From Alphaproteobacteria bacterium (GTDB lineage Bacteria > Pseudomonadota > Alphaproteobacteria > Micropepsales > Micropepsaceae), in assembly GCA_947474645.1 (NCBI GenBank), contig CANJJD010000009.1:1-64000 (forward strand): a stretch of 64,000 bases of DNA, in the 5' to 3' direction. Below are positions 2,142-45,002 of this stretch, piece by piece. The translations under genes and the position numbers were made by a program. The notes under the pieces are model-generated. The model ran no database searches. It was given only the letters and a program-made list of their open reading frames with translations, and had not been told where the DNA came from. The stretch's first letter is position 1. Each line of letters begins with the position of its first letter.

Positions 2142-5100
2142 TTACTCTGCCGCGATGGCGGCGCGCGCCTTGATGTCGGCCAGCGCCTTGGCATAGTCGG
2201 ACGGCATCACCTTGACGAATTTCGCCAGGCTCGCATCCCAATTGTCCAGCATCTGGCTGGCGCGCGGGCTGCCCGTGCGCAAAAGATAGCGTTCCACCAG
2301 GATGCGCAGCCGCTCGGCGTCGAAGCGCAGCAGGTCACCCATCCCCGGATCGGAGACGCTGACCGAGCGTTGCTTGGGCAGGTCGGGATGATCGCCGCCC
2401 TCGGCGGGAGCGATCTTTTCCAGCTTGACCATGGCGTGGTTGCAGCGCTGATCGAAATTGCCTTCCTCGTCGAAGACATAGGCGATGCCGCCCGACATGC
2501 CGGCGGCGAAATTGCGCCCCGTCTTGCCCAGCACCACCACCACGCCGCCGGTCATGTATTCGCAGCCATGATCGCCGGTGCCTTCCACCACGGCGATGGC
2601 GCCGGAATTGCGCACCGCGAAACGCTCGCCCGCCACGCCCTGGAAATAGGCCTCGCCGGCGATGGCGCCGTACAGCACCGTGTTGCCGACAATGATGTTC
2701 TCGGCCGGATCGCGGGACAGGCCGGAGGGCGGCTTGACCACGATGCGCCCGCCGGAAAGTCCCTTGCCGACATAGTCATTGGCGTCGCCGGTCAGTTCCA
2801 GCGACACGCCGCGCGCCAGGAAAGCGCCGAAGGATTGGCCGGCCTGGCCGGTGAATTTCACGCTGATCGTGTCTTCCGGCAGCCCGGCATGGCCGTGGCG
2901 CTTGGCCACTTCGCCCGACAGCATGGCGCCGACGGTGCGGTCCACATTGCGCACGGTGCGTTCCAGGCGCACGGACTGGCCGTTCTCGATCGAGGGCAGG
3001 CTGGCGGCGATCAGGTCGTGATCCAGCGCCGATTCCAGCCCGTGATTCTGCTTTTCCCGGTGATGGATGGCGACGCCGGGCTTGGGCGTGACGCTGTACA
3101 GGATGCGCGACAGGTCCACGCCCTTGGCCTTCCAGTGGCCGACCGCCTTGTTCATGTTGATCTTGTCCACCCGCCCGATCATCTCGTTCAGGGTGCGGAA
3201 GCCCAGGCCCGCCATGATGACGCGCAGTTCTTCGGCCACGAAGAAGAAGTAATTGATCACATGCTCGGGCTGGCCGGTGAAGCGCTTGCGCAGCACCGGG
3301 TCCTGCGTGGCGACACCGACCGGGCAGGTGTTGAGATGGCACTTGCGCATCATGATGCAGCCCGAGGCGATCAGGGGCGCGGTGGCGAAGCCAAACTCAT
3401 CGGCGCCCAAGAGCGCGCCGATGGCGACATCGCGGCCGGTGCGAAGCCCGCCATCGACCTGCACCGCGACACGGCCGCGCAATCCGTTCAAGACAAGCGT
3501 CTGCTGGGTCTCGGCCAGGCCGATTTCCCAGGGCGAACCGGCATGGGTCAGTGAGGTCAGCGGCGAGGCGCCGGTGCCGCCTTCAAAGCCCGAAATGGTG
3601 ATGTGATCGGCGCGGCACTTGGCGACGCCGGCGGCGACGGTGCCGACACCGACTTCCGACACCAGCTTGACCGAGATGCGCGCCTTTTGATTGACGCTCT
3701 TGAGGTCGCGGATGAGCTGCGCGAGATCCTCGATGGAATAGATGTCGTGATGCGGCGGCGGCGAAATCAGGCCGACGCCGGGCGTCGAGTGACGCACCTT
3801 GGCGATATTGGCGTCCACCTTGTGGCCGGGAAGCTGGCCGCCTTCGCCGGGCTTGGCGCCTTGCGCCATCTTGATCTGGATGTCGTCGGCATTGACCAGA
3901 TACTCGGCGGTGACGCCGAAGCGGCCGGACGCCACCTGCTTGATCGCCGAGCGCATGGAATCGCCATTGGCCATCGGCTTGAAGCGGTCGGATTCCTCGC
4001 CGCCCTCGCCGGTGTTGGAACGGCCGCCGATGCGGTTCATGGCGATGGCGAGGTTGGTATGGGCCTCGCGGGAAATCGAACCGAAGCTCATGGCGCCGGT
4101 GGAGAATCGCTTGACGATTTCATTGGCCGGCTCGACCTCGTCGAGCGGCACCGACTCGCCGGTCTTGAACTGCATCAGCCCACGCAGGGTGAGGAGGCGC
4201 TCGGCCTGGTCGTTTATGGTGCTGGCGAACAGCTCATATTCGGCCGGATTGTTGCCGCGCACCGCATGCTGCAGGCGGGACACCGAATCCGGCGTCCAGG
4301 CATGGTCCTCGCCGCGCAGGCGGAAGGCATAGTCGCCGCCCACATCCAGCATGTTGCGGTAGATGGGATTGTCGCCGAAGGCGTCCTTGTGACGGCGCAC
4401 CGCTTCGCCGGCGATCTCCTTGAGGCCGATACCCTCGATGGTGGAGGCGGTGCCGGTGAAATATTTCTGGATGAAGTCGGTGGAAAGCCCGACCGCGTCA
4501 AAGATCTGGGCGCCGCAATAGGACTGGTAGGTGGAGATGCCCATCTTGGACATCACCTTGAGGACGCCCTTGCCGATGGCCTTGATGTAGTTCTTCTGCA
4601 CTTCATAGGGCTTGAGGGTCAGGCCCTGGCGCACCCGGATCTGCTCCAGGGTTTCAAACGCAAGGTACGGATTTATCGCCTCGGCGCCGTAACCGGCCAG
4701 CGCGCAGAAATGATGCACTTCGCGGGCTTCGCCGGTTTCGACAACAAGACCGGTCTGCATGCGCAGGCCCTGGCGCACCAGGTGATGATGCACGGCGGCG
4801 GTGGCCAGCAAGGCCGGCACCGGAATGCGGTCGGCGCTGACGGCGCGGTCCGACAGGATCAGAATATTGTTGTCCGCCAGCACCGCATCGGTGGCATTCA
4901 GGCAGATGCGCTGCACGGCATTGGACAGGCCCTCGGCGCCTTCCGACGCCGGCCAGGTGCAGTCAATGGTGCCGGTGCGGAAGGCGCCGTCCACCAGTTC
5001 GGAAATCGAGCGGATCTTCTCCACATCGGCGTTGGTCAGCACCGGCTGGGAAACTTCCAGCCGCTTGTGTGCGCCCGCATCGCGGCCCAGCAAATTGGGA

Positions 5101-24129: not shown

Positions 24130-24216
24130 GGCGGCGGGACCATAGCCAATTTCCGGCAAAAGTGAACCAACAAAAAACCCGCCTTTCGGCAGGTTTTTCG
24201 CGCCAATTTGGCCGTC

Positions 24217-25497
24217 CTAGGGCACCGGCGCAGCAGGGGGCTCGACATAGATCTGCCGGCTGGCGTCCACGAACAGGAACAATATCCCGCCGATCGCCGC
24301 CAGAGCCGCCACCACATAGAAGGACATGTTCCAGCCATAGGACGCCACGATATAGCCGGTGGCCGCCGCCATGATGGTGCCGCCGATATTGCCCAGGGTG
24401 TTCATCACGGACGACACCGAGCCGGCAAAATTGCCGCCGATGTCCAGCGCCACCGCCCAGGCATTGCCCACCACCAGTTCCAGGCTGAACACCGCCAGGC
24501 CGAACAGCGCGATGCTGATATAGGGATTGGGCTCCAGCACCGCGATGGGGCAGACGATGGCGGCGATAAAGAAGCCGGTCACCGCCACCACCTTGCGGGC
24601 GAACTTGATGCGGCCTGTCTTCTTGATGATCTCGTCGGAGAACCAGCCGCCGGCGATATCGCCCAGCACGCCCGCCGCGAGCGGCAGGCTGGCGAAGACG
24701 CCCATCTGGGTCAGGCTCATGCCGCGGGCCGCGTCCAGATATTTCGGGAACCAGGCCAGGAACATGTTGAGCGAATAGCCGTAGCAGAAATAGGTCGCCG
24801 ACAGCGCCCACATCTGCGGGCTGGACAGGATCGCGCGCCATGGAATCGCCCTGCGCGTGGGCGGCGCGCCCAACGCGGCATGGATCATCTGCCGCTCTTC
24901 GTCATTGGCGCTGGCGTGCTCATTGGGATTGTCGCGATAGTAAAAATACCAGACGCCCGCCCATGCCAGGCCCACCACCGCGAAGACGAAGAAGGGCATG
25001 CGCCAGCCGAAATGATAGATCAGATAGGCCACCATCACCGGGGTGATGGCCGCGCCGAGCCGCGCACCGGCATGGGTGACGCCTTGGGCCCAACCGCGCT
25101 CGGATGGCAGCATCCAGCGCGACAGCGAACGGGTGGCGTTGGGGAAAGCGCCGGCTTCGCCCATGCCGAACAGGAAGCGGCACACCACCATCGAGCTGAC
25201 CGACCAGGACATGGCGGTGAAGGCGGTGAAGGCCGACCACCAGAATACGATCGCGGTCAGCATCTTGCGCGGGCCAAAATAGTCGCCCAGCCAGCCGCCG
25301 GGAATCTGGAACAGCGAATAGCTGAGCTGGAACGCCGCCAGGATCAGGCCGACGGTCTGGATGCTGAAGCCGAACTCCTTCTGTATCGAAGGCATGGCGG
25401 TGGAGATCAGCACCCGGTCGAAATAGGTGACCATGTACAGCAGCACGGTCAGCCACAGGATGGTGTGACGTACGCGCGTCGGCCTGGCTACGGACAT
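24217..25497 (-). CDS. MFS transporter, hexuronate/galactonate:H+ symporter type
   Basis: 426 residues with 12 TM helices, of the anion:cation symporter (ACS) subfamily. Typical segments are LYMVTYFDRVLISTAMPSIQKEFGFS in TM1, PGGWLGDYFGPRK in the loop 2-3 motif A, and CRFLFGMGEAGAFPNATRSLSRWMLPSERGWAQG, the ACS signature. Such proteins import galactonate, glucarate or hexuronates. The start MSVARPTR at 25497 follows AAGGGAAAAG. The gene lies 57 bases downstream of the exported amidohydrolase and probably shares its transcript. The nearby KDGal/KDPGal genes suggest D-galactonate as cargo. Confidence 0.88.
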   Translation of the reverse strand: MSVARPTRVRHTILWLTVLLYMVTYFDRVLISTAMPSIQKEFGFSIQTVGLILAAFQLSYSLFQIPGGWLGDYFGPRKMLTAIVFWWSAFTAFTAMSWSVSSMVVCRFLFGMGEAGAFPNATRSLSRWMLPSERGWAQGVTHAGARLGAAITPVMVAYLIYHFGWRMPFFVFAVVGLAWAGVWYFYYRDNPNEHASANDEERQMIHAALGAPPTRRAIPWRAILSSPQMWALSATYFCYGYSLNMFLAWFPKYLDAARGMSLTQMGVFASLPLAAGVLGDIAGGWFSDEIIKKTGRIKFARKVVAVTGFFIAAIVCPIAVLEPNPYISIALFGLAVFSLELVVGNAWAVALDIGGNFAGSVSSVMNTLGNIGGTIMAAATGYIVASYGWNMSFYVVAALAAIGGILFLFVDASRQIYVEPPAAPVP

Positions 25498-25554
25498 GGC
25501 GGCTTTTCCCTTACGGACGTCCAACGGTACCGGAACAGATTCCCGGCGCCATGC

Positions 25555-26979
25555 TTAGTACGGCATATGCGGCACGTCGGTGGAGGCGCCGGTGGTGCAG
25601 GCGCTGAGCGGCCGGTCGCGGCAGGTCTGCCAGACGGTCGGCACCGAGTTGCCGGCGATAAACACCGCCGAAATCATCTGGGTGTAGCGGATATCGTCCA
25701 GCGGATTTTTCTCCAGCACCACCAGGTCGGCCCACTTGCCCTTCTCGATGCTGCCGATGCTCTTGTCGCCCAGCCAGCGGGCATTGTCGCTGGTGGCGGA
25801 CTTGATGGCCTCCATCGGGGTGCGGCCCGCCAGAACCTGCATCTGCATTTCCTCATGCGCGTTAAAGCCGGGGAAGCGGCCATTGGGGCCGCTGTCGGTG
25901 CCCATGCCGACATTCACGCCGGCATTGACCATCGCCTGCCAGTTTTCCAGCGCCTGAACCAAAGTGCGGTCCATGTCGAAGAACACTTTCTTTTCATACG
26001 GCAGGCCGGGGAAACGGGTCGGACCCAGCACCACCGCTTTTTCACGCGCCATGCTGCGCAGCGCATCCAGGGTGCCGGGAGTAACGCCCCGGGTGAAGAA
26101 GGGGTCGTTCAGCCAGGGCATGATCGCCAGGCTATAGGCCATTTCACGCGACAGGGTGGCCGAGACCATCCACACGCCCTTGGCCTTCATCATGTCCAGC
26201 AGTTCCTTGTCCACCGGCTGGTCGCGCACCATGTGGCCGAAACCGTCCACGCCCTGGCGGATCAATTCCTTGGCGTCCTCCAGATAGAAAACATGCGCCA
26301 CGGCGCGCAGACGCTTCTTGTGCGCCTGGTCGATAATCGCGGCGGTCACGTCGAACGGCATCTTGACCGGGATGGTCTTGCGCTCGTCGTCGACCCACAA
26401 TTTGATGAAGTCCACGCCCTTGGCGGCCTGCTCGTCGACCAGCTTGCGGCCTTCTTCCGCGGTGGCGATGGGCTGAGTGACGCCCACCAGCCCGCCATAG
26501 CCGCCCTTGATCACGGCGCCCTGGCCGGCGCTGAACACGCGCGCGATGGTGGGGCGGCTCTTGCGCTGCTGGTTGCGCAGCTCGAGCACGAAATCCTTGT
26601 CGGTGCCCAGCACCTGCACCGCGGTGACGCCATAGGCGGCATACTGCTTGAGGTCGGTATTCACATTTTCGGGCGTGAAAAATTTCTCGTCCTGGGTGAC
26701 GTCCTTCATCAACCCGATATGAACGTGGGAATCGATGATGCCGGGCATCACGGTCTTGCCGGCCATGTCCTGGGTGGTCGCATCCTTGGGCGCCTTCAGG
26801 CCCGACATCGGGCCGGCATAGGTGATCTTGCCGTTGGTCATGACGATGGCGGAGTTGGGCTGGGCCGCGGCGCGGACGCCATCAATCAGGGTCAGGTTGG
26901 TCAGCACGGTAGTTTCGGCCAACGCCGGCGCGGCAAAACCCGCCAGCAACGCCGCCATGCCCCATTTCAAACCCTGCAT
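25555..26979 (-). CDS. Exported amidohydrolase (imidazolonepropionase/prolidase-like fold)
   Basis: 474 residues. A signal peptide (MQGLKWGMAALLAGFAAPALA) precedes a metal-dependent amidohydrolase. Metal sites visible are DSHVHIG (HxH), KLWVDDE (the Lys of strand 4), RAVAHVFY (His), GHMVRDQ and the catalytic MGTDSGPN. The composite beta-sandwich at both ends (MTNGKITYAG, GKWADLVVLEKNPLDDI) is complete. Substrates of this subgroup are usually cyclic amides, dipeptides or lactones, and the specific one cannot be read from sequence. The ATG at 26979 is chosen by its GGAGTGG and signal peptide. It heads a two-gene unit with the MFS transporter. Confidence 0.85.
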   Translation of the reverse strand: MQGLKWGMAALLAGFAAPALAETTVLTNLTLIDGVRAAAQPNSAIVMTNGKITYAGPMSGLKAPKDATTQDMAGKTVMPGIIDSHVHIGLMKDVTQDEKFFTPENVNTDLKQYAAYGVTAVQVLGTDKDFVLELRNQQRKSRPTIARVFSAGQGAVIKGGYGGLVGVTQPIATAEEGRKLVDEQAAKGVDFIKLWVDDERKTIPVKMPFDVTAAIIDQAHKKRLRAVAHVFYLEDAKELIRQGVDGFGHMVRDQPVDKELLDMMKAKGVWMVSATLSREMAYSLAIMPWLNDPFFTRGVTPGTLDALRSMAREKAVVLGPTRFPGLPYEKKVFFDMDRTLVQALENWQAMVNAGVNVGMGTDSGPNGRFPGFNAHEEMQMQVLAGRTPMEAIKSATSDNARWLGDKSIGSIEKGKWADLVVLEKNPLDDIRYTQMISAVFIAGNSVPTVWQTCRDRPLSACTTGASTDVPHMPY

Positions 26980-27386
26980 CTTCCACTCCGTTATTTTCTT
27001 GGCTGTACAACCGGTTCTAAGGCAGGGGCTCGCGAAAAAAAACCTCAAAGAGTTACGCTGCACTGCGTCATAGAACTGCGGATAAAAATAATGCCGCCCT
27101 CCGGTTTGGAAGGCGGCACCGATGGTGCGGGTTGATCCCGCTTTGTGTCGTTACGTCCCGTCAGGCGCGTCTTGCAGGCCCGTTCGGTTTAACACCGATA
27201 ACGTATTGATTTGCCCTGTTTCCTCGACCCCGGCCGGCGGTCTATTGCCGCCTTTCGATGCGCGGCTCCCTTTGGCGGGGCCTCTTGCCAGAACACTATG
27301 CCAGGGAAGCGACAAAAACAAATGCCGCGATTTTGCGCGAGCGCGCAAAGGCGCTTAAATTGCCGCAAAATCAAAAGGAGATCGGG
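26980..27386. other. 407-bp divergent intergenic region, no convincing protein gene
   Basis: This region separates the amidohydrolase (-) from the propeller gene (+). Short open frames occur on both strands but lack ribosome sites and family resemblance. It contains a strong minus-strand intrinsic terminator (27080-27118) more than 100 bases upstream of the amidohydrolase start. That suggests an attenuated leader or a small RNA encoded around 27119-27386 on the minus strand. Confidence 0.5.
27080..27118 (-). terminator. Intrinsic terminator in the amidohydrolase leader or at the end of a small RNA
   Basis: On the minus strand TGCCGCCTTCC pairs with GGAGGGCGGCA (11 pairs, one G-U) around AAACC and is followed by TTATTTTTATC. 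It is a textbook stem plus U-tract. No minus-strand protein gene lies upstream to account for it. Confidence 0.75.
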
Positions 27387-28226
27387 ATGGGGAAATTTTC
27401 ACGCCGCGGCATGATGACCGGCATGGCGGCCGGCATCGCGATCCCGCAAAGCGCCTGGGCCGCCGATCCGGTGATCCCCGCCGCCACCATCGCGGCGCGC
27501 ACCAATGCGCCGGTGATCCCCAAGAAGGTCAACAAGCTCTACAATCTCAAGGCCCAGGTGGATCAGCCCAATGACATGCAGTTCGCCGCCAATGGCGATC
27601 TGTGGATCCTGGACCAGAAAGATCCCAACAAGGTCTTCACCATCAACCCCAAGACCGGCGCGGTGCTTGCCAGCGTGGAGACCGAATCCATTCATGGCAG
27701 CGGCATCACCTATGGCGACGGCGCCTGGTTCATCACCTCGACCAAGGTGGTGAGCGGCAAGCCTTCGACCCTGAAGGTGGATCCTGCGACCGGCAAGACG
27801 CTGAAGAAGTGGGAGACACCCGGCTGGGGCATCTATGGTTCCTATCTCAGCCGCGTGCAAAAGCCCGGCGACCTGCCGCTGGAATCGGGCGGCCATGGCG
27901 TGAAGTGGGCCGGCAACGGCCAGTATTGGCTGGCGACGCCGGCCGGCGGCAAGCTCTATTTGATCAATGCCGAGGCCGGGACCGTGGCGCGCTCCATCCA
28001 GGCGCCGACGGTGCGCACCCATGGCATCGCCCTGGATGGCGATCACATCTGGTGCGTGGGCTCCGACGAAGCGGAAATCTACAAGCTGCGGATGTCGGAC
28101 GGCGGCATTGTCGCCAAGATCGTGCTGGACAAGGTCAATGATCCATCCGTGCACGGGTTGGACATCAAGGATGGTGTCTTGTGGTATTGCGACGCCGCCA
28201 AGGGCTGGGTCTGCAACCTGACCTGA
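27387..28226 (+). CDS. Tat-exported beta-propeller protein (Vgb/SMP-30-like), possible lactonase
   Basis: 279 residues. The leader GKFSRRGMMTGMAAGIAIPQSAWA has a twin-arginine motif and an AWA cleavage site. The mature part consists of repeated propeller blades: MQFAANGDLWILDQKDPNKVFTI, GITYGDGAWFITS, GIALDGDHIWCVGSDEAEIYKL, GLDIKDGVLWYCD. The ATG at 27387 has AAGGAG six bases upstream. The next gene, 29 bases on, is a Tat-exported sugar-acid dehydratase, so this protein may handle the lactone or sugar acid before dehydration. That role is inferred from context, since the metal-binding residues of true gluconolactonases are not obvious. Confidence 0.7.
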   Translation: MGKFSRRGMMTGMAAGIAIPQSAWAADPVIPAATIAARTNAPVIPKKVNKLYNLKAQVDQPNDMQFAANGDLWILDQKDPNKVFTINPKTGAVLASVETESIHGSGITYGDGAWFITSTKVVSGKPSTLKVDPATGKTLKKWETPGWGIYGSYLSRVQKPGDLPLESGGHGVKWAGNGQYWLATPAGGKLYLINAEAGTVARSIQAPTVRTHGIALDGDHIWCVGSDEAEIYKLRMSDGGIVAKIVLDKVNDPSVHGLDIKDGVLWYCDAAKGWVCNLT

Positions 28227-28255
28227 TCGTAAAAATAAAAACTGGGGAGATGACG

Positions 28256-29500
28256 ATGGACCGCCGCAACTTGATGACGGGCATGCTGGGCACTGCTGCC
28301 GCTGCGCTGTGGACGCCGCCCGATGCTTTCGCGCTGGGACTGCCCAAGGACAAGATCAAGCGCATCCGCTACTACAAGACGCCCACCGATGCGGCGGGGC
28401 GGCCCAACATCCACCAGCCGACCTTCAACCAGTCCACCAACGTCGTCACCATCGAGACCGAAAGCGGCTTGATCGGTATCGGCGAAGGCGGCGAGCCCTC
28501 GACCATGGAGCAATGCGCCGGGCTGTTGATCGGCCAGGATCCGTTCCGCATCGAGCATCTGTGGCAGCGCATGTATCGCGGCTACTTCTATCCGGCCGGC
28601 CGCGAAAAGACTCATTCGCTTGGCGGCCTGGACCTGGCGCTGTGGGATCTCAAGGGCAAGACGCTGGGCGTGCCGGTATGGCAACTGCTGGGCGGCAAGA
28701 GCCGCGACCATATCGAATGCTATGCCACCTCCTACCCCACGCCCAAGGGCGGCACCATCGAAGACGCGGCGCGCGCCTGCGTCGCCGAAGGCTTCCGCGC
28801 CTATCGCTTGGGTACAGTGGGCGAAAGGGAGTTCGACCGCTTCCAGGCGGTGCAGGATTCCTTTGAGGCCTGCAAACTGGCGCGCAAGGGCGCCGGCAAG
28901 GATGGCGGCTGGGCCATCGATTTCCACGGCGTGCTGGACCAGGAAGACGCCATCAACCTGGCCCGGCTGATCGAACCGCTGCGCCCCTATTTCGTCGAAG
29001 ACCTGGTGCGCGGCGAGAATGTCGAGATCTACAAGACCATCCGCCCGCGCCTGGGCGTGCCGATCGCGGTCGGCGAAATCTACGGCGCCAAGTGGGACAC
29101 CAACATGCTGATCGAGCATCAGTTGATCGACTTTGCCCGCTGCACCGTTCCCAATGTCGGCGGCATCACCGAATACATGAAAATCTGCGCCATCGCCGAG
29201 ACCCATTATGTCGGCATGATTCCGCACTTCACCGGTCCCATCGGCGAAACCGCATTGGTGCATTGCCTGATCGCCACCTCGAACAAGGCGCTGATGGAAA
29301 TGACCGCCTCGGGCCGCGAGCCCTGGCCTTACCTGCCGCAATGCTATGACTTCAAGAATGGCAAGCTATGGCCCAATGAGCGGATCGGGCTTGGCCTGAC
29401 CCTGGACACCAGCAAGCTGCAGATGATCGGCGACTGGAGCGAGGCCTATTCGCCCATCCCGATCAATCATCGGCCGGACGGCAGCTATACCAACTGGTAG
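28256..29500 (+). CDS. Tat-exported mandelate racemase/enolase-superfamily sugar-acid dehydratase (DgoD-like)
   Basis: 414 residues. The N terminus MDRRNLMTGMLGTAAAALW carries a twin-arginine-type leader ending near PDAFA. The enolase-superfamily body follows. The capping domain has GLIGIGEGGEPS and SLGGLDLALWDLKGKTLGVPVWQLLGG. The barrel has metal ligands in DFHGV (Asp, with the catalytic His as in galactonate/gluconate dehydratases), FVEDL (Glu) and AVGEIYG (Glu), and a later His in MIPHFTGPIG. It probably removes water from an aldonate such as D-galactonate. The ATG at 28256 follows GGGGAG at the usual spacing, and the ATG at 28250 is too close. It lies tail-to-tail with dgoA, three bases apart. 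Confidence 0.82.
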   Translation: MDRRNLMTGMLGTAAAALWTPPDAFALGLPKDKIKRIRYYKTPTDAAGRPNIHQPTFNQSTNVVTIETESGLIGIGEGGEPSTMEQCAGLLIGQDPFRIEHLWQRMYRGYFYPAGREKTHSLGGLDLALWDLKGKTLGVPVWQLLGGKSRDHIECYATSYPTPKGGTIEDAARACVAEGFRAYRLGTVGEREFDRFQAVQDSFEACKLARKGAGKDGGWAIDFHGVLDQEDAINLARLIEPLRPYFVEDLVRGENVEIYKTIRPRLGVPIAVGEIYGAKWDTNMLIEHQLIDFARCTVPNVGGITEYMKICAIAETHYVGMIPHFTGPIGETALVHCLIATSNKALMEMTASGREPWPYLPQCYDFKNGKLWPNERIGLGLTLDTSKLQMIGDWSEAYSPIPINHRPDGSYTNW

Positions 29501-29503
29501 GCG

Positions 29504-30127
29504 TCAGCCCGCCGCTTTGAACGCCTCGACACACTGGCGGGCGCGGGCCGCAATGTCCGCGTCCGTGAAGTCGGGCCTGAACAGGTCCGAACCCAGGCCG
29601 AAGCCGGCGGCGCCCGCGACGCGCCATTCCTTCATGTTGGACGCGCCGGCGCCGCCCACCGCATAGACCGGTATGTTCTTGGGCAGCACCGCCAGCATGG
29701 CTTTCAGGTGGCCGATGCCGCCGCTGGAGGCGGGGAACAGTTTCAAATAGCGCGCGCCCGCCGCCACGGCGGCAAAGCCTTCGCTGGGAGTAAAGAAGCC
29801 CGGCATCACCGTCAGGCCTTTTTTCACGCCATGGGCGATGACGGCGGGATTGGTGTTGGGCGTCACCAGCAATTTGCCGCCCACGCCGGCCACCTGGTCC
29901 ACCTGTTCCGGCGTCAGCACCGTACCGGCGCCCGTGAGGCAGCGTTCGCCGAACTGCTTGGCCAGCAGTTCGATGCTCTTCAGGGGTTCGGGCGAATTCA
30001 GCGGCACCTCGATGGCGCGGAAGCCCGCCTCGAACAGCGCGCCGGCTACGCCTTCGATCCGCGCCGGCGTGACGCCGCGCAGGATGGCGACCAGGGGCAG
30101 TTCGGCCAAAAGTGCGTCAGCGTTCAT
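29504..30127 (-). CDS. dgoA: 2-dehydro-3-deoxy-6-phosphogalactonate aldolase
   Basis: 207 residues of the KDPG/KDPGal aldolase family. The Schiff-base lysine is Lys129 in ARYLKLFPAS, and the acid/base residue is Glu40 in RAIEVPLNSPEP. The NSPEP sequence, instead of the RTP of KDPG aldolases, favours KDPGal. It splits KDPGal to pyruvate and glyceraldehyde 3-phosphate, the last step of the De Ley-Doudoroff pathway. Its start overlaps the dgoK stop by four bases (ATGA), so the two are translationally coupled. Confidence 0.94.
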   Translation of the reverse strand: MNADALLAELPLVAILRGVTPARIEGVAGALFEAGFRAIEVPLNSPEPLKSIELLAKQFGERCLTGAGTVLTPEQVDQVAGVGGKLLVTPNTNPAVIAHGVKKGLTVMPGFFTPSEGFAAVAAGARYLKLFPASSGGIGHLKAMLAVLPKNIPVYAVGGAGASNMKEWRVAGAAGFGLGSDLFRPDFTDADIAARARQCVEAFKAAG

Positions 30128-31035
30128 GAGAAGATTTCCGCATGGGCATGGACCAGGCCCGCCAGGGCCGCTTCATCGCCGTCAATCGCGGCGCCGGTGA
30201 GATCATAGGCATTGAGCGCCTTGGTATAAAGCGCCGCCAGACCGGGGGTGCAGATCAACTGCACCGGGCCTTTCAGCTCCAGTAGTGTCCGCGCCGAGCC
30301 GATATCCTTGCCCAGCATAAGACCCGACAGATAAGACGCGGCCTCGGCCTTGGGCATTTCGCCCGTGACCACGCGGCTGCGCGTGCTGAACAGCAGGTGC
30401 AGCAGGTCGGCTTTTTCATTGGCCTTGGCGAAATCCAGCCCGCGCGCAAAAGCGGGACTTGCGGCATCCACCTCGCCGCTATCGCGCGCCAGCACACTGT
30501 GGCGTCGTACCAGCTCGAACAATTCGCCCGACAGCGCCGTCTGGAACTGGATCACCGCGCCGTCCTCCACCACCACCCATTTGACATGGGTGCCGGGCAT
30601 GCAGAGGACATGGCGGCCCTTGGTCAGGTCGGGACGCAGCCGCAGCGCCCCCAGGATCTGCGTTTCCTCGCCGCGCATCACATCCGGCGCGCCGGTCTTT
30701 CCGGTGCAGGACAGGCCCGGCAGGATGGCGATGGAACGGCCGCCCGCATCAAGACGCAGCGCCGCGCCCGCGATGGCGCCGGGCTTGGCGGGGCACTTCA
30801 GATAGGGCACTTCGCGCCAGCCGATGGTCGAGCCGACCATGCCGCCCAGCACCGCCGGCAACACGCCATGCGCCTTGTCCCAGGGCGCCACCGCGGCGGC
30901 GAAACGGCCGGCGCAATCGGGCGCCGAAGCGCCCTCGCCTTCGCCCCGCGCCAGCACATGCCCCGCCGCGTCACATAGATAAAGCCGCAAGCGGCTGGTG
31001 CCCCAATCGCCCGCGATGAAGGATGCCCTGCTCAT
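30124..31035 (-). CDS. dgoK: 2-dehydro-3-deoxygalactonokinase
   Basis: 303 residues of the DgoK family (ASKHA fold). The phosphate-binding start FIAGDWGTSRLRLYL, then GGMVGSTIGWREVPYLKCPA, the central ILPGLSCTGKTGAPDVMRGEETQ, and MPGTHVKWV are diagnostic. It phosphorylates 2-keto-3-deoxygalactonate with ATP to KDPGal for the aldolase encoded immediately downstream. The start is the ATG at 31035. The upstream neighbour, a stress-type protein on the same strand, ends 33 bases before it, so limited read-through is possible. Confidence 0.95.
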   Translation of the reverse strand: MSRASFIAGDWGTSRLRLYLCDAAGHVLARGEGEGASAPDCAGRFAAAVAPWDKAHGVLPAVLGGMVGSTIGWREVPYLKCPAKPGAIAGAALRLDAGGRSIAILPGLSCTGKTGAPDVMRGEETQILGALRLRPDLTKGRHVLCMPGTHVKWVVVEDGAVIQFQTALSGELFELVRRHSVLARDSGEVDAASPAFARGLDFAKANEKADLLHLLFSTRSRVVTGEMPKAEAASYLSGLMLGKDIGSARTLLELKGPVQLICTPGLAALYTKALNAYDLTGAAIDGDEAALAGLVHAHAEIFS

Positions 31036-39385: not shown

Positions 39386-39979
39386 TCAGTGCGCCTGCGC
39401 GGCGCGCAGATGCGCGCTCAACGCGTTGATATCGCCGTTATTTTGCGACAGCACGCTGAGGAACTCGGCTTGTTGCGCCGGTGCAAGCCACACGCCTGCA
39501 ACACCGATATCCAGCAGCAAAGGCTTTGCGCCATCGGTGCGCACGCGGAAATCCACTTCCATCGGCGCCGTGCCGTTGCCGGTCAGGTTGGCGGCAACGA
39601 CATAATCGCCCGGCGCGCGTTCGCGCGACGACGTCACATGCAGGCTCTGTCCGGCATAGCGCGCGAAATAGGTTTGATAGAGCGCCTCGGCATGTTCCTG
39701 ATAGGCGGCGACATAGGCATCCAGATCCGCCGGCGACGCGGTTTGCGCATAACGTCCCAGCATGAACAGCGCCACCCGCCGCACATCCGTGAGACCCAGC
39801 AAAAACGCGGCAAATCGCGTCCGGCGCTGGGCCGGGCTGGCGTTGGGATCGTTCAGTATGTCGAAGCCGGCCTGGATATTGCCGCTGACAAAAGCTTCGG
39901 CGGGATTGATCGCCCAGGCCGGAGTTGAAAAGCCGATGGCCAACGCACCCGCGCTGAGCAGGAGATGTCTGCGTTTCAT
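39386..39979 (-). CDS. MlaC/Ttg2D-family phospholipid-binding protein
   Basis: 197 residues. A signal leader (MKRRHLLLSAGALAIGFSTPAWA) precedes the MlaC fold: NIQAGFDILND...RRTRFAAFLLGLTDVRRVALFMLGRY, DLDAYVAAYQEHAEALYQTYFARYAG, DYVVAANLTGNG, PLLLDIGVAGVWLAPAQQAEFLSVLSQNNGDINAL. These proteins carry phospholipids or hopanoid precursors across the periplasm. The usual mlaFED partners are not adjacent, so this is an isolated member like HpnM. The final 'YxxSVLSQNNGDINALSAHLR' is strongly conserved in the family. Confidence 0.85.
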   Translation of the reverse strand: MKRRHLLLSAGALAIGFSTPAWAINPAEAFVSGNIQAGFDILNDPNASPAQRRTRFAAFLLGLTDVRRVALFMLGRYAQTASPADLDAYVAAYQEHAEALYQTYFARYAGQSLHVTSSRERAPGDYVVAANLTGNGTAPMEVDFRVRTDGAKPLLLDIGVAGVWLAPAQQAEFLSVLSQNNGDINALSAHLRAAQAH

Positions 39980-42190: not shown

Positions 42191-42703
42191 GTGACGCGCA
42201 CAACTCTTCTGGCGCTGGCTGTGATGGCCATCACCGCGCCCGCTTTCGCGGCCGACTATCAGGCCAATCTCGGTCCCATGCCGCTGGACGACGAAACCAA
42301 GGCGGTGATCGCCGGCCGCGGCGAGGTCACCGCTTCATCGGACGGCAAGACGCTGACGGTGAAGGGCAGCTTCCATGGCCTGCCCTCCAACGCCACCGAG
42401 GCGCACATCTTCTCCAGCATCGTGGCTGGTGTGCCGGGCACCAAAGTGCTGGACCTGGACGTCACCAAGTCCACCAGCGGCACGGTCACCGGCAGCTATA
42501 GCCTGACGGGCGCGCAGGCCGCCGCGCTTCGCACCGGCAAGCTCTATATCCAGATCAATTCGGAAAAAGCGCCCACCACTTATCCCTGGGGGCCCAAGGG
42601 CACCTTGTGGGGCTGGATCTTCCCGGCCCACGAAAGTGTTGGCGCCAACGTGCCGCAGCAGGATCATTGGTTCCTGCCGCAATACGACACGCCGCAACGC
42701 TGA
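42191..42703 (+). CDS. CHRD-domain exported protein
   Basis: 170 residues. A signal peptide ([20 protein letters not shown]) precedes a CHRD-type beta domain: [97 protein letters not shown]. The domain is found in chordin and many bacterial secreted proteins with undefined function. Start at GTG 42191, seven bases after AAGGAG. The gene lies between the bicupin and the PQQ dehydrogenase with short gaps, so the three are probably one operon. Confidence 0.85.
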
Positions 42704-42722
42704 ACAGCGCGGAACCAGATTC

Positions 42723-45002
42723 ATGAGGACGATGATGCGCAACAAGACTCTTTTGCTGGCGGGCGCCGGCTTTGCCCTGGCCGCTGCGCTGGGCGCCGTG
42801 GCGTTCGCACAAGGCGCGGCCGGGCCCTTCACCACTGCCCAGGCCGGCGCCGGCCATCAGCAATACGATGCCAACTGCTCGCCCTGCCACTTGCAGGATC
42901 TCGCCGGCACCAATGACGCCCCCGCCTTGGCCGGGCCGGCCTTCATGGGCGCATGGGGCGGACGCACCACCGCCCAGCTCTACAGCAAGATCGCCACCAC
43001 CATGCCGGCGGGCGCGGGCGGCAGCCTTTCACAACAGCAATATACCGACATCTTGGCCTATATATTGGAGCGCAACGGCGCCCGCGCCGGAACCAGCGCT
43101 TTCACACCCGCCACCGCCGTGTCGATCGCCGGAATCGCCACCGGCCGCGCTGCAGCGCCCGCGCGCCCCGCCACCACCGCACAATCTGGCGGCGGCGCGG
43201 CAGCCCAAACCAGCGGCCGCCAGGAATCGGCGCCCGCATCCGGCCAGGGGAATGCCCCCGCCCAGGCCGGTGCGGCGCAAAGCAACTTTGCCCGCGCCAT
43301 GGCTGGTGTGCGCGTGCCCGATCCCGGCTCTTTCACCCTGCCCAGCAAGTTCGGCCTGACCTTGAAGGGCAATATCCAGAACTATCAGCCCGTCACCGAA
43401 GCGATGATGGTCAATCCGCCGGACAGCGACTGGCTGATGTACCGGCGCAATTACCAGGGCTGGAGCTACAGCCCGCTCAACCAGATCACCACCGCCAATG
43501 CCGGCTCGCTGCAACTCAAATGGATGTGGTCGCTGGAGCAGAACGGCACCCTGGAAGGCACGCCGATCGTCCATAACGGCGTGATGTTCCTGTGGAGTCC
43601 GGGCAATACCGTTCAGGCGCTCAATGCCGTGACGGGCGAGCTGATCTGGGAACACCGTCTGGGCCCGGCCCCGCGCCGCCCCGGCCCCGGCCCCTCCACC
43701 GAAGAGACCCGCAGCCTGGGCCTGTGGGGCAACAATGTTTACGTCAACACGCCGCAAGGCCATCTCTATGCGCTCGACGCGCGCACCGGCGAGCAGGTGT
43801 GGAAGACCCACATCACCGACGAACTGCCCGCGCCCGGCGGCGGCTTTTTCGGCGGCTCCACCGGCGGCATCATCATCATCAAGGGCCGCATCCTGGTCGG
43901 CATGACCAATTGCGGCCGCGCCGGCGATAACAATCATTGCTACATCAGCGCCTATGACGCGGCGACCGGCAAGCGCGACTGGAAATTCGTCACCGTCGCC
44001 CTCACCGGCCAGAAGGGCGGCAACACCTGGGGCGGCTTGCCGGACAACAAGCGCAAGGGCGGCGAGACCTGGATCGCCGGCACTTATGATCCGGTATTGA
44101 ACACCACCTATTGGGGCACCGCCCAGGCCAAGCCGTGGCGGCGCGACCTGCGCGGCTCCGGTCATGGCGACACCGACTGGGCCAATTCCACCATCGCGCT
44201 CGATCCGGTGACCGGCCAGATGAAGTGGGCCTACAACCACGCGCCCGGCGAGTCGCTGGACCTGGACGAAGTGTTCGAGCGCGTGCTGGTGGATCATGGC
44301 AGCGAGCGATCGCTGCTGACCATCGGCAAGGCCGGCATTCTGTGGAAGCTGGACCGCGTCACCGGCAAGTTCATCGCCGCCAAGCAGACCGTCTTCCAGA
44401 ACGTCTATGAGAATTTCAACGAGAAGACGGGCAAGGTCGTGTACCGCAAGGACATCCGCGACCAGAAGGTGGACCAGTGGCTCGCCTCCTGCCCCGGCCC
44501 GGAAGGCGGTCACGACTGGCAGGCCATGAGCTATCACCAGCCGTCCGACGCCATGATCATTCCCCTGTCGCAATCCTGCGTCTTCATGTTGGGCAACGGC
44601 TCGCAGACCTATTTCGAGATGCCGGGCAGCGACGGCAATATGGGCCGGCTATCGGCCTATCGCGCCGCCGACCTCAAGCCGCTCTGGAGCTTCCAGCAGC
44701 GCGCGCCCTTCCTGACCGGCGTGATCTCGACGGCGGGCAATGTGGCCTTTGTCGGCGATTTCGACCGGGTGTTCCGCGCGGTGGATACCCGCAACGGCAA
44801 GACGCTGTGGAAGACCCGGCTGGCCACCACGGTCCAGGGCTATCCGGTGACCTTCAGCATGGACGGCAAGCAGTATGTCGCCGTCACCACGGGCCTGGGC
44901 GGCGGCAGCCCGCAGCTCAAGCCCGGCACCATGCTGACGGAAGTTCACCGCCCGCCGCATGGCTATAATATTTTCGTTTTCGGCCTGCCGGACGCCAACT
45001 AG
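42723..45002 (+). CDS. Cytochrome c-PQQ quinoprotein dehydrogenase, cytochrome domain at the N terminus
   Basis: About 759 residues. A signal peptide is followed by a c-type haem site CSPCH (Cys52, Cys55, His56), with Met-containing ATTMPAG later as probable axial ligand region. A Pro/Ala/Gln-rich linker (about 125-195) joins an eight-bladed PQQ propeller ([88 protein letters not shown]). It should oxidise an alcohol or sugar in the periplasm and pass electrons to its own haem. Alternative starts are the ATGs at 42732 and 42735. Most PQQ alcohol dehydrogenases have the cytochrome at the other end. Confidence 0.9.

Follow-up and report, generated by a model that had tools for sequence, protein, structure and literature searches.

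Where does a sugar acid lose its water when the enzyme expected to remove it carries an export signal? The question is raised by a locus in the window studied here, a stretch of 64,000 nucleotides from an alphaproteobacterium of the Micropepsaceae (contig CANJJD010000009.1, positions 1 to 64,000). On the plus strand, a gene for a Tat-leadered five-bladed β-propeller of 279 aa (27387-28226, from ATG 27387 to the stop at 28226) precedes a gene for a Tat-leadered candidate sugar-acid dehydratase of the enolase superfamily (MR_MLE; PF02746 plus PF13378; 414 aa, 28256-29500, starting at ATG 28256, with ATG 28250 also possible, and stopping at 29500). Purine-rich, Shine-Dalgarno-like stretches, AAAGGAG and GGGGAG, lie before the propeller and dehydratase starts. 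A sequence-only reading, whose coordinates for both genes proved correct, had proposed that the sugar acid is dehydrated outside and the resulting 2-keto-3-deoxy acid imported.

Only 3 bp beyond the dehydratase gene, and convergent with it on the minus strand, is the gene for a 2-keto-3-deoxy-6-phosphogalactonate aldolase, DgoA (29504-30127; NF006600, 274 bits against a cut-off of 207; 48% identical to E. coli DgoA), followed by that for a 2-keto-3-deoxygalactonokinase, DgoK (30124-31035, minus strand; PF05035, 282 bits). Neither has a leader, as had been noted from the sequence. Given the opposite strands, an operon joining the dehydratase to DgoK and DgoA was rejected. Leftward of the propeller, the minus strand encodes an amidohydrolase with a Sec-type leader (25555-27063; PF01979), which lies upstream of the gene for an MFS transporter of the anion:cation symporter type (24217-25524; TIGR00893, 281 bits, cut-off 395), and then LeuD and LeuB; the transporter and dehydratase genes are thus divergently transcribed. 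DgoK has a single match in the genome, at this locus, and KDPG-type aldolases number two.

The order LeuB-LeuD-MFS-amidohydrolase / propeller-dehydratase / DgoA-DgoK is kept across about 16 related genomes wherever contigs reach, the exceptions being L019 and L069, in which the propeller is missing. The dehydratase occurs in 21 of 96 genomes of the family, all of one genus. DgoK and DgoA adjoin it in the syntenic loci and are found near two more distant homologues as well; around the distant members L072 and most of L075-L082, the flanks retrieved contain neither gene. Acidobacterial relatives have a conserved protein encoded before the Tat dehydratase gene (L022:2966-3823, L021:492-1571) that looks fumarylacetoacetase-like by eye; Pfam gave no match for the L022 protein. 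Near the Tat dehydratase of L080 are genes for a Tat-leadered DHDPS-family aldolase and a Tat-leadered xylose-isomerase-like TIM barrel (L080:4777-5754 and 3458-4516), which hints that certain relatives may export enzymes for more of the pathway.

Our best explanation, whose chances we judge to be evenly balanced, is periplasmic dehydration with import of the product by the linked MFS protein and its delivery to DgoK and DgoA. It builds on conserved leaders, an intact metal site, leaderless DgoK and DgoA, the single DgoK, and a history shared by transporter and dehydratase. PQQ-dependent dehydrogenases and lactonases would probably form an aldonate, D-galactonate or a near relative, on the outer side of the inner membrane. 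The dehydratase would fold with Mg2+ in the cytoplasm, be exported in folded form to the periplasm by Tat, and there convert the aldonate to a 2-keto-3-deoxy acid. This acid would be imported by the proton-coupled MFS transporter; DgoK would then phosphorylate it, and DgoA would split the phosphorylated acid into pyruvate and glyceraldehyde-3-phosphate. The locus would in this way cover the final extracytoplasmic reaction of a sugar-acid pathway and the uptake that follows. Of the original proposal, the analysis supports enzyme export, on sequence grounds, and the coupling of enzyme to transporter, on grounds of shared history; which substrate is used and which way the pathway runs are what we infer.

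Evidence for the coupling comes from how the genes of this locus have been inherited. Distances for the MFS gene correlated with those for the dehydratase at 0.84, with those for most other genes at 0.32-0.53, and with those for LeuB at 0.04. By amidohydrolase, DgoK and M3 peptidase, the window genome is nearest to L014, L015, L016 and L070; by the MFS and dehydratase genes, it is nearest to L010, L011, L012, L020 and L023 (L010 without MFS coverage). AU tests rejected grouping the window copies with the sister lineage for the MFS protein (p = 7e-48) and the dehydratase (6e-6), and rejected the opposite grouping for the amidohydrolase (1.4e-4), DgoK (2e-71), M3 peptidase (0.005) and propeller (0.03). 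The amidohydrolase is syntenic, yet its tree follows the species-like genes and not the MFS/dehydratase pair.

A DNA identity scan delimited two exchanged patches. The first covers the MFS gene (24200-25500): from 24200 to 25400, identity to L014 and L070 drops to 59-77% and that to L020 and L023 is 77-94%, while near 25500 it is 70-71% to both lineages. The second (28750-30000) takes in the catalytic barrel of the dehydratase and distal DgoA; the identity pattern switches near 28750, is clear to about 29400, and fades across DgoA. Between the patches lies about 3 kb of native DNA with the amidohydrolase and propeller. This signal of co-exchange stems mainly from one recent event and one older split. 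Because transporter and dehydratase were replaced together and the genes between them were not, the two likely handle the same compound, and they probably share a substrate. The earlier remark that an ACS-type transporter lies close to the enzyme is therefore strengthened by phylogenetic history, beyond proximity.

The residues of the transporter bear on what that compound may be. In DgoT, Y44, R47 and Y79 engage the carboxylate, D46 and E133 handle protons, and Q164, Q264, S370 and N393 contact the hydroxyls of galactonate (PMC6532931). The window MFS protein, 27% identical to DgoT, retains all five carboxylate and proton residues; of the four hydroxyl contacts it retains N393 and has lost Q164, Q264 and S370 (the alignment at Q264 and S370 is unstable between two alignments, neither of which gives Q or S in the window protein). 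Such a set of residues would suit a sugar acid whose hydroxyls are arranged differently, for example a dehydrated product, and the window MFS protein is a probable importer of the product of the dehydratase. Elsewhere in the genome is a canonical, leaderless DgoD (671 bits, 60% identical to the E. coli enzyme), and the MFS protein adjoining it (C20) is 49% identical to DgoT and keeps 4/4 of the hydroxyl contacts. Because this canonical DgoD and DgoT-like transporter exist, DgoK and DgoA at the window locus may serve the canonical route instead.

The competing explanation that survives best leaves the dehydratase exported and has the linked MFS protein import the intact sugar acid or some other organic acid, with the dehydratase placed in a side or overflow route whose product is excreted or processed further outside. 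We consider it unlikely. It draws on the membership of the MFS protein in the D-galactonate importer family and on the additional Tat-leadered sugar enzymes near some relatives, such as the L080 aldolase, but leaves unaccounted the joint change of transporter and dehydratase across lineages and the loss of most DgoT hydroxyl contacts, and galactonate is already served by the dedicated DgoT-like importer at C20.

Import of a dehydrated product presupposes that the enzyme is a dehydratase. Its catalytic equipment was assessed against two families, DgoD and ManD; features of ManD are an Arg on the second barrel strand and a Tyr in the next loop. The Arg of ManD is catalytic, and in DgoD a His-Asp dyad serves as the general base. 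By alignment to E. coli DgoD, D222, E248, E274, the acid H224, H324 and the E348 equivalent are invariant in 32/32 homologues, and D222, E248, E274 and H224 correspond to the DgoD metal ligands D183, E209 and E235 and the acid H185. The D-x-H, Glu, Glu and His residues that had been described as intact are thus all in place. In the His285-Asp258 dyad of DgoD, the His is kept and the Asp is replaced by T/S/A in 32/32 homologues, the window enzyme having Thr at the Asp258 site. A conserved Arg, R184, occupies the ManD Arg site, and the Tyr-bearing loop of ManD is deleted in the alignment.

Profile scores place the enzyme in neither family. It reached 211 bits against the DgoD model NF010624 (equivalog cut-off 311) and 200 bits against the ManD model NF043051 (cut-off 550), and no characterized NCBIfam equivalog scored above its own cut-off. 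Identity to E. coli DgoD is 32%. In a 49-sequence tree, in which the long-branched paralogues L003 and L007 are placed with little certainty, the enzyme falls on the ManD side (support 96/82), apart from the DgoD of E. coli and from that of its own genome. Among 398 other genomes of the phylum, no member scored near the window dehydratase, and the best matches were at the level of canonical DgoD. On the scores below cut-off, the missing dyad and the tree placement, we rejected identity as a canonical DgoD, and the label "DgoD-like" in the earlier reading is misleading. Because the Asp of the general-base dyad is missing, the reaction could differ from that of DgoD. The structure model (pLDDT 89) has its best PDB matches in enolase-superfamily dehydratases (Z 40-44).

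The protein is likely to be a dehydratase, of a kind other than DgoD. That it is instead an epimerase, racemase or lactone isomerase acting on a periplasmic sugar acid is distinctly improbable: the retained D-x-H acid, seventh-strand His, E348 equivalent and ManD-like R184 argue against such a reaction, the nearest families by tree and by fold are dehydratases, and DgoK and DgoA use a dehydration product. The replaced dyad Asp, the deleted tyrosine loop and the lack of any characterized equivalog above its cut-off are what give this alternative its weight.

Export of the enzyme is predicted from a leader (28256-28333, plus strand) with the sequence MDRRNLMTGMLGTAAAALWTPPDAFA, which holds a DRRNLM motif, an h-region scoring 5.96, and a predicted cleavage site between AFA and LG, before LGLPKD. 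All 30 of the nearest homologues with a leader, 27 from Alphaproteobacteria and 3 from Acidobacteria, have an RR pair near the start, and A-x-A followed by LGL is fixed in 27/27 of the alphaproteobacterial ones; the h-region between these landmarks varies in length and sequence. A strict, home-made twin-arginine rule passed 3/20,000 shuffled N-termini of the dehydratase and 9/20,000 of the propeller. Applied to the 2,047 pseudo-starts of the window, it passed just 4, namely the propeller, two nested starts of the dehydratase, and a real gene at 39979. Given alone to the Pfam model TAT_signal (PF10518), the leader scored 15.8 bits (cut-off 22.7), and the TIGR01409 profile reported no match on the window dehydratase. 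A TatC gene is present in the genome. The RRNLM twin-arginine leader had been recognized from the sequence, and the homologues and shuffles bear it out.

The leader is also translated, because 66% of codon differences among homologues in this segment fall at third positions. AlphaFold leaves the leader unstructured, below pLDDT 60 and mostly below 50 over the first ~23 residues, and models the rest as a confident enolase fold that begins at about residue 31. A search for a conserved downstream start found no in-frame ATG, GTG or TTG past the leader until residue 71, inside the N-terminal domain, and therefore no leaderless form is encoded. The nearest homologues from outside the Alphaproteobacteria and Acidobacteria, in Armatimonadetes (L024) and Pelagicoccus (L025), are leaderless, which makes the leader an acquired trait. 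As far as sequence can tell, export of the dehydratase is nearly certain. A cytoplasmic enzyme with an N-terminal extension or a misplaced start is very improbable, despite the subthreshold curated Tat models and the leaderless L024 and L025, given the RR and A-x-A conservation, the same leader type on the adjoining propeller, and at least five origins of leaders among the enolase relatives compared; a wrong start codon was specifically rejected on the missing alternative start, the translated codon pattern through the leader and the good Shine-Dalgarno-like stretch.

Export of enolase-superfamily proteins recurs within this genome. Tat-type leaders are present on 6/10 of its enolase-superfamily genes: the window enzyme, two proteins that clear the DgoD threshold (319 and 356 bits), a ManD-like protein, a rhamnonate-dehydratase-like protein, and one that is unassigned. 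For most of the five further leadered genes (L101:7850-9052, L102:4670-5929, L103:8180-9475, L105:4914-6251 and L107:3346-4593), the genome also has a leaderless gene from the same broad subfamily at another site; besides DgoD, it encodes ManD, L-rhamnonate dehydratase and glucarate dehydratase without leaders. Mapped on the enolase tree, the leader label changes six times, and at least five of these changes are forced by well-supported branches. Among 19 canonical DgoD proteins tested from the phylum, none had a Tat-type leader. A further Tat-leadered protein, by eye resembling a UxuA-type mannonate dehydratase (L105:3667-4845), adjoins the Tat-leadered ManD-like enzyme.

Genes for sugar oxidation and lactone opening occur near these enzymes. 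One Tat-leadered relative is encoded just 3 bp ahead of a gene for a cytochrome-PQQ dehydrogenase, others are near exported PF10282 or SMP-30 lactonases, and in L072 the gene for a Sec-leadered PF10282 lactonase directly precedes the Tat dehydratase. PQQ repeats gave 53 matches in the genome, mostly to ORFs of about 600-850 aa and one at 42636-45002 of the window; such dehydrogenase genes are very numerous for a genome of 2.6 Mb. We suggest, tentatively and with some doubt, that the periplasm of this lineage houses the upper half of sugar-acid pathways of the Entner-Doudoroff type, from PQQ oxidation through opening of the lactone to dehydration, that a dedicated symporter imports the 2-keto-3-deoxy acid, and that several unrelated enolase-superfamily dehydratases were recruited to Tat in parallel, mostly beside cytoplasmic counterparts.

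The propeller encoded ahead of the dehydratase is likewise predicted to be exported, as had been proposed: its twin-arginine leader, MGKFSRRGMMTGMAAGIAIPQSAWA followed by A, is the one tested by shuffling above. Its model (pLDDT 86) has five blades, and by fold it comes closest to glutaminyl cyclases from bacteria and plants (Z 23.8), with NHL propellers next (Z 17). Each blade has one invariant residue where its inner strand begins (N62, H103, H170, H212 and H256, in an alignment of 16 sequences), a ring that suggests binding of a metal or substrate. The propeller is absent from the whole L019 genome, and in that of L069 the sole counterpart is a more distant relative (62%) encoded on a different contig; because it is missing beside the dehydratase in these two genomes, it is an accessory part. 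We do not assign it as a PF08450 or PF10282 lactonase, for which matches were weak and below cut-off, nor as a glutaminyl cyclase, which it resembles in fold; Pfam gave no glutaminyl cyclase match at E up to 0.01. Any part in handling lactones is a guess. Similar paralogues occur in other genomes; the one in L128 has a GH51-like enzyme on one side and a PQQ-type dehydrogenase on the other.

If the favored pathway is true, dehydration, one of the committed steps of sugar-acid catabolism, occurs outside the inner membrane, and the compound that crosses it is a 2-keto-3-deoxy acid and not the sugar acid. This would alter what the bacteria keep private and what they leak to neighbors, and would account for transporters that resemble galactonate carriers without being such. 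The paired cytoplasmic and exported dehydratases would form a natural series for studying the relocation of enzymes between compartments, and automatic "galactonate dehydratase" labels would conceal exported enzymes of other specificity. To a specialist, the unexpected parts are the repeated export within one genome and the history shared by dehydratase and transporter.

Compared with the E. coli dgo operon (DgoD/GalD, DgoK, DgoA, DgoT), the window locus is alike in enzyme superfamily, metal ligands, D-x-H acid, DgoK and DgoA neighbors, and a nearby ACS-type transporter. It differs in the Tat leader, the 32% identity to DgoD, the missing dyad Asp, the 27% identity of transporter to DgoT, the spread of its genes over three transcription units, and the presence of a true DgoD elsewhere in the same genome. 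To ManD/RspA, the D-mannonate/D-gluconate dehydratase subgroup, the enzyme is tied by tree grouping, Thr at the Asp258 site and R184 at the Arg site; it differs in having no tyrosine-loop insertion, in scoring 200 against 550 bits, and in its Tat leader. The propeller shares its fold with the five-bladed glutaminyl cyclases of Xanthomonas (3mbr) and Zymomonas (3nol) (Z 23.8 over 208 residues at 2.3 Å), but identity is 14%, the cyclase Pfam family does not match, and the central pocket has four invariant His and one Asn. A literature search, thin on subscription journals and thus weak evidence of novelty, found no periplasmic or Tat-exported sugar-acid dehydratase of the enolase superfamily. 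Acetic acid bacteria carry out oxidative sugar metabolism in the periplasm, with PQQ dehydrogenases, a membrane-bound gluconolactonase and a route from quinate to dehydroshikimate (PMC9171043); like theirs, the pathway proposed here would oxidize sugars and open lactones in the periplasm.
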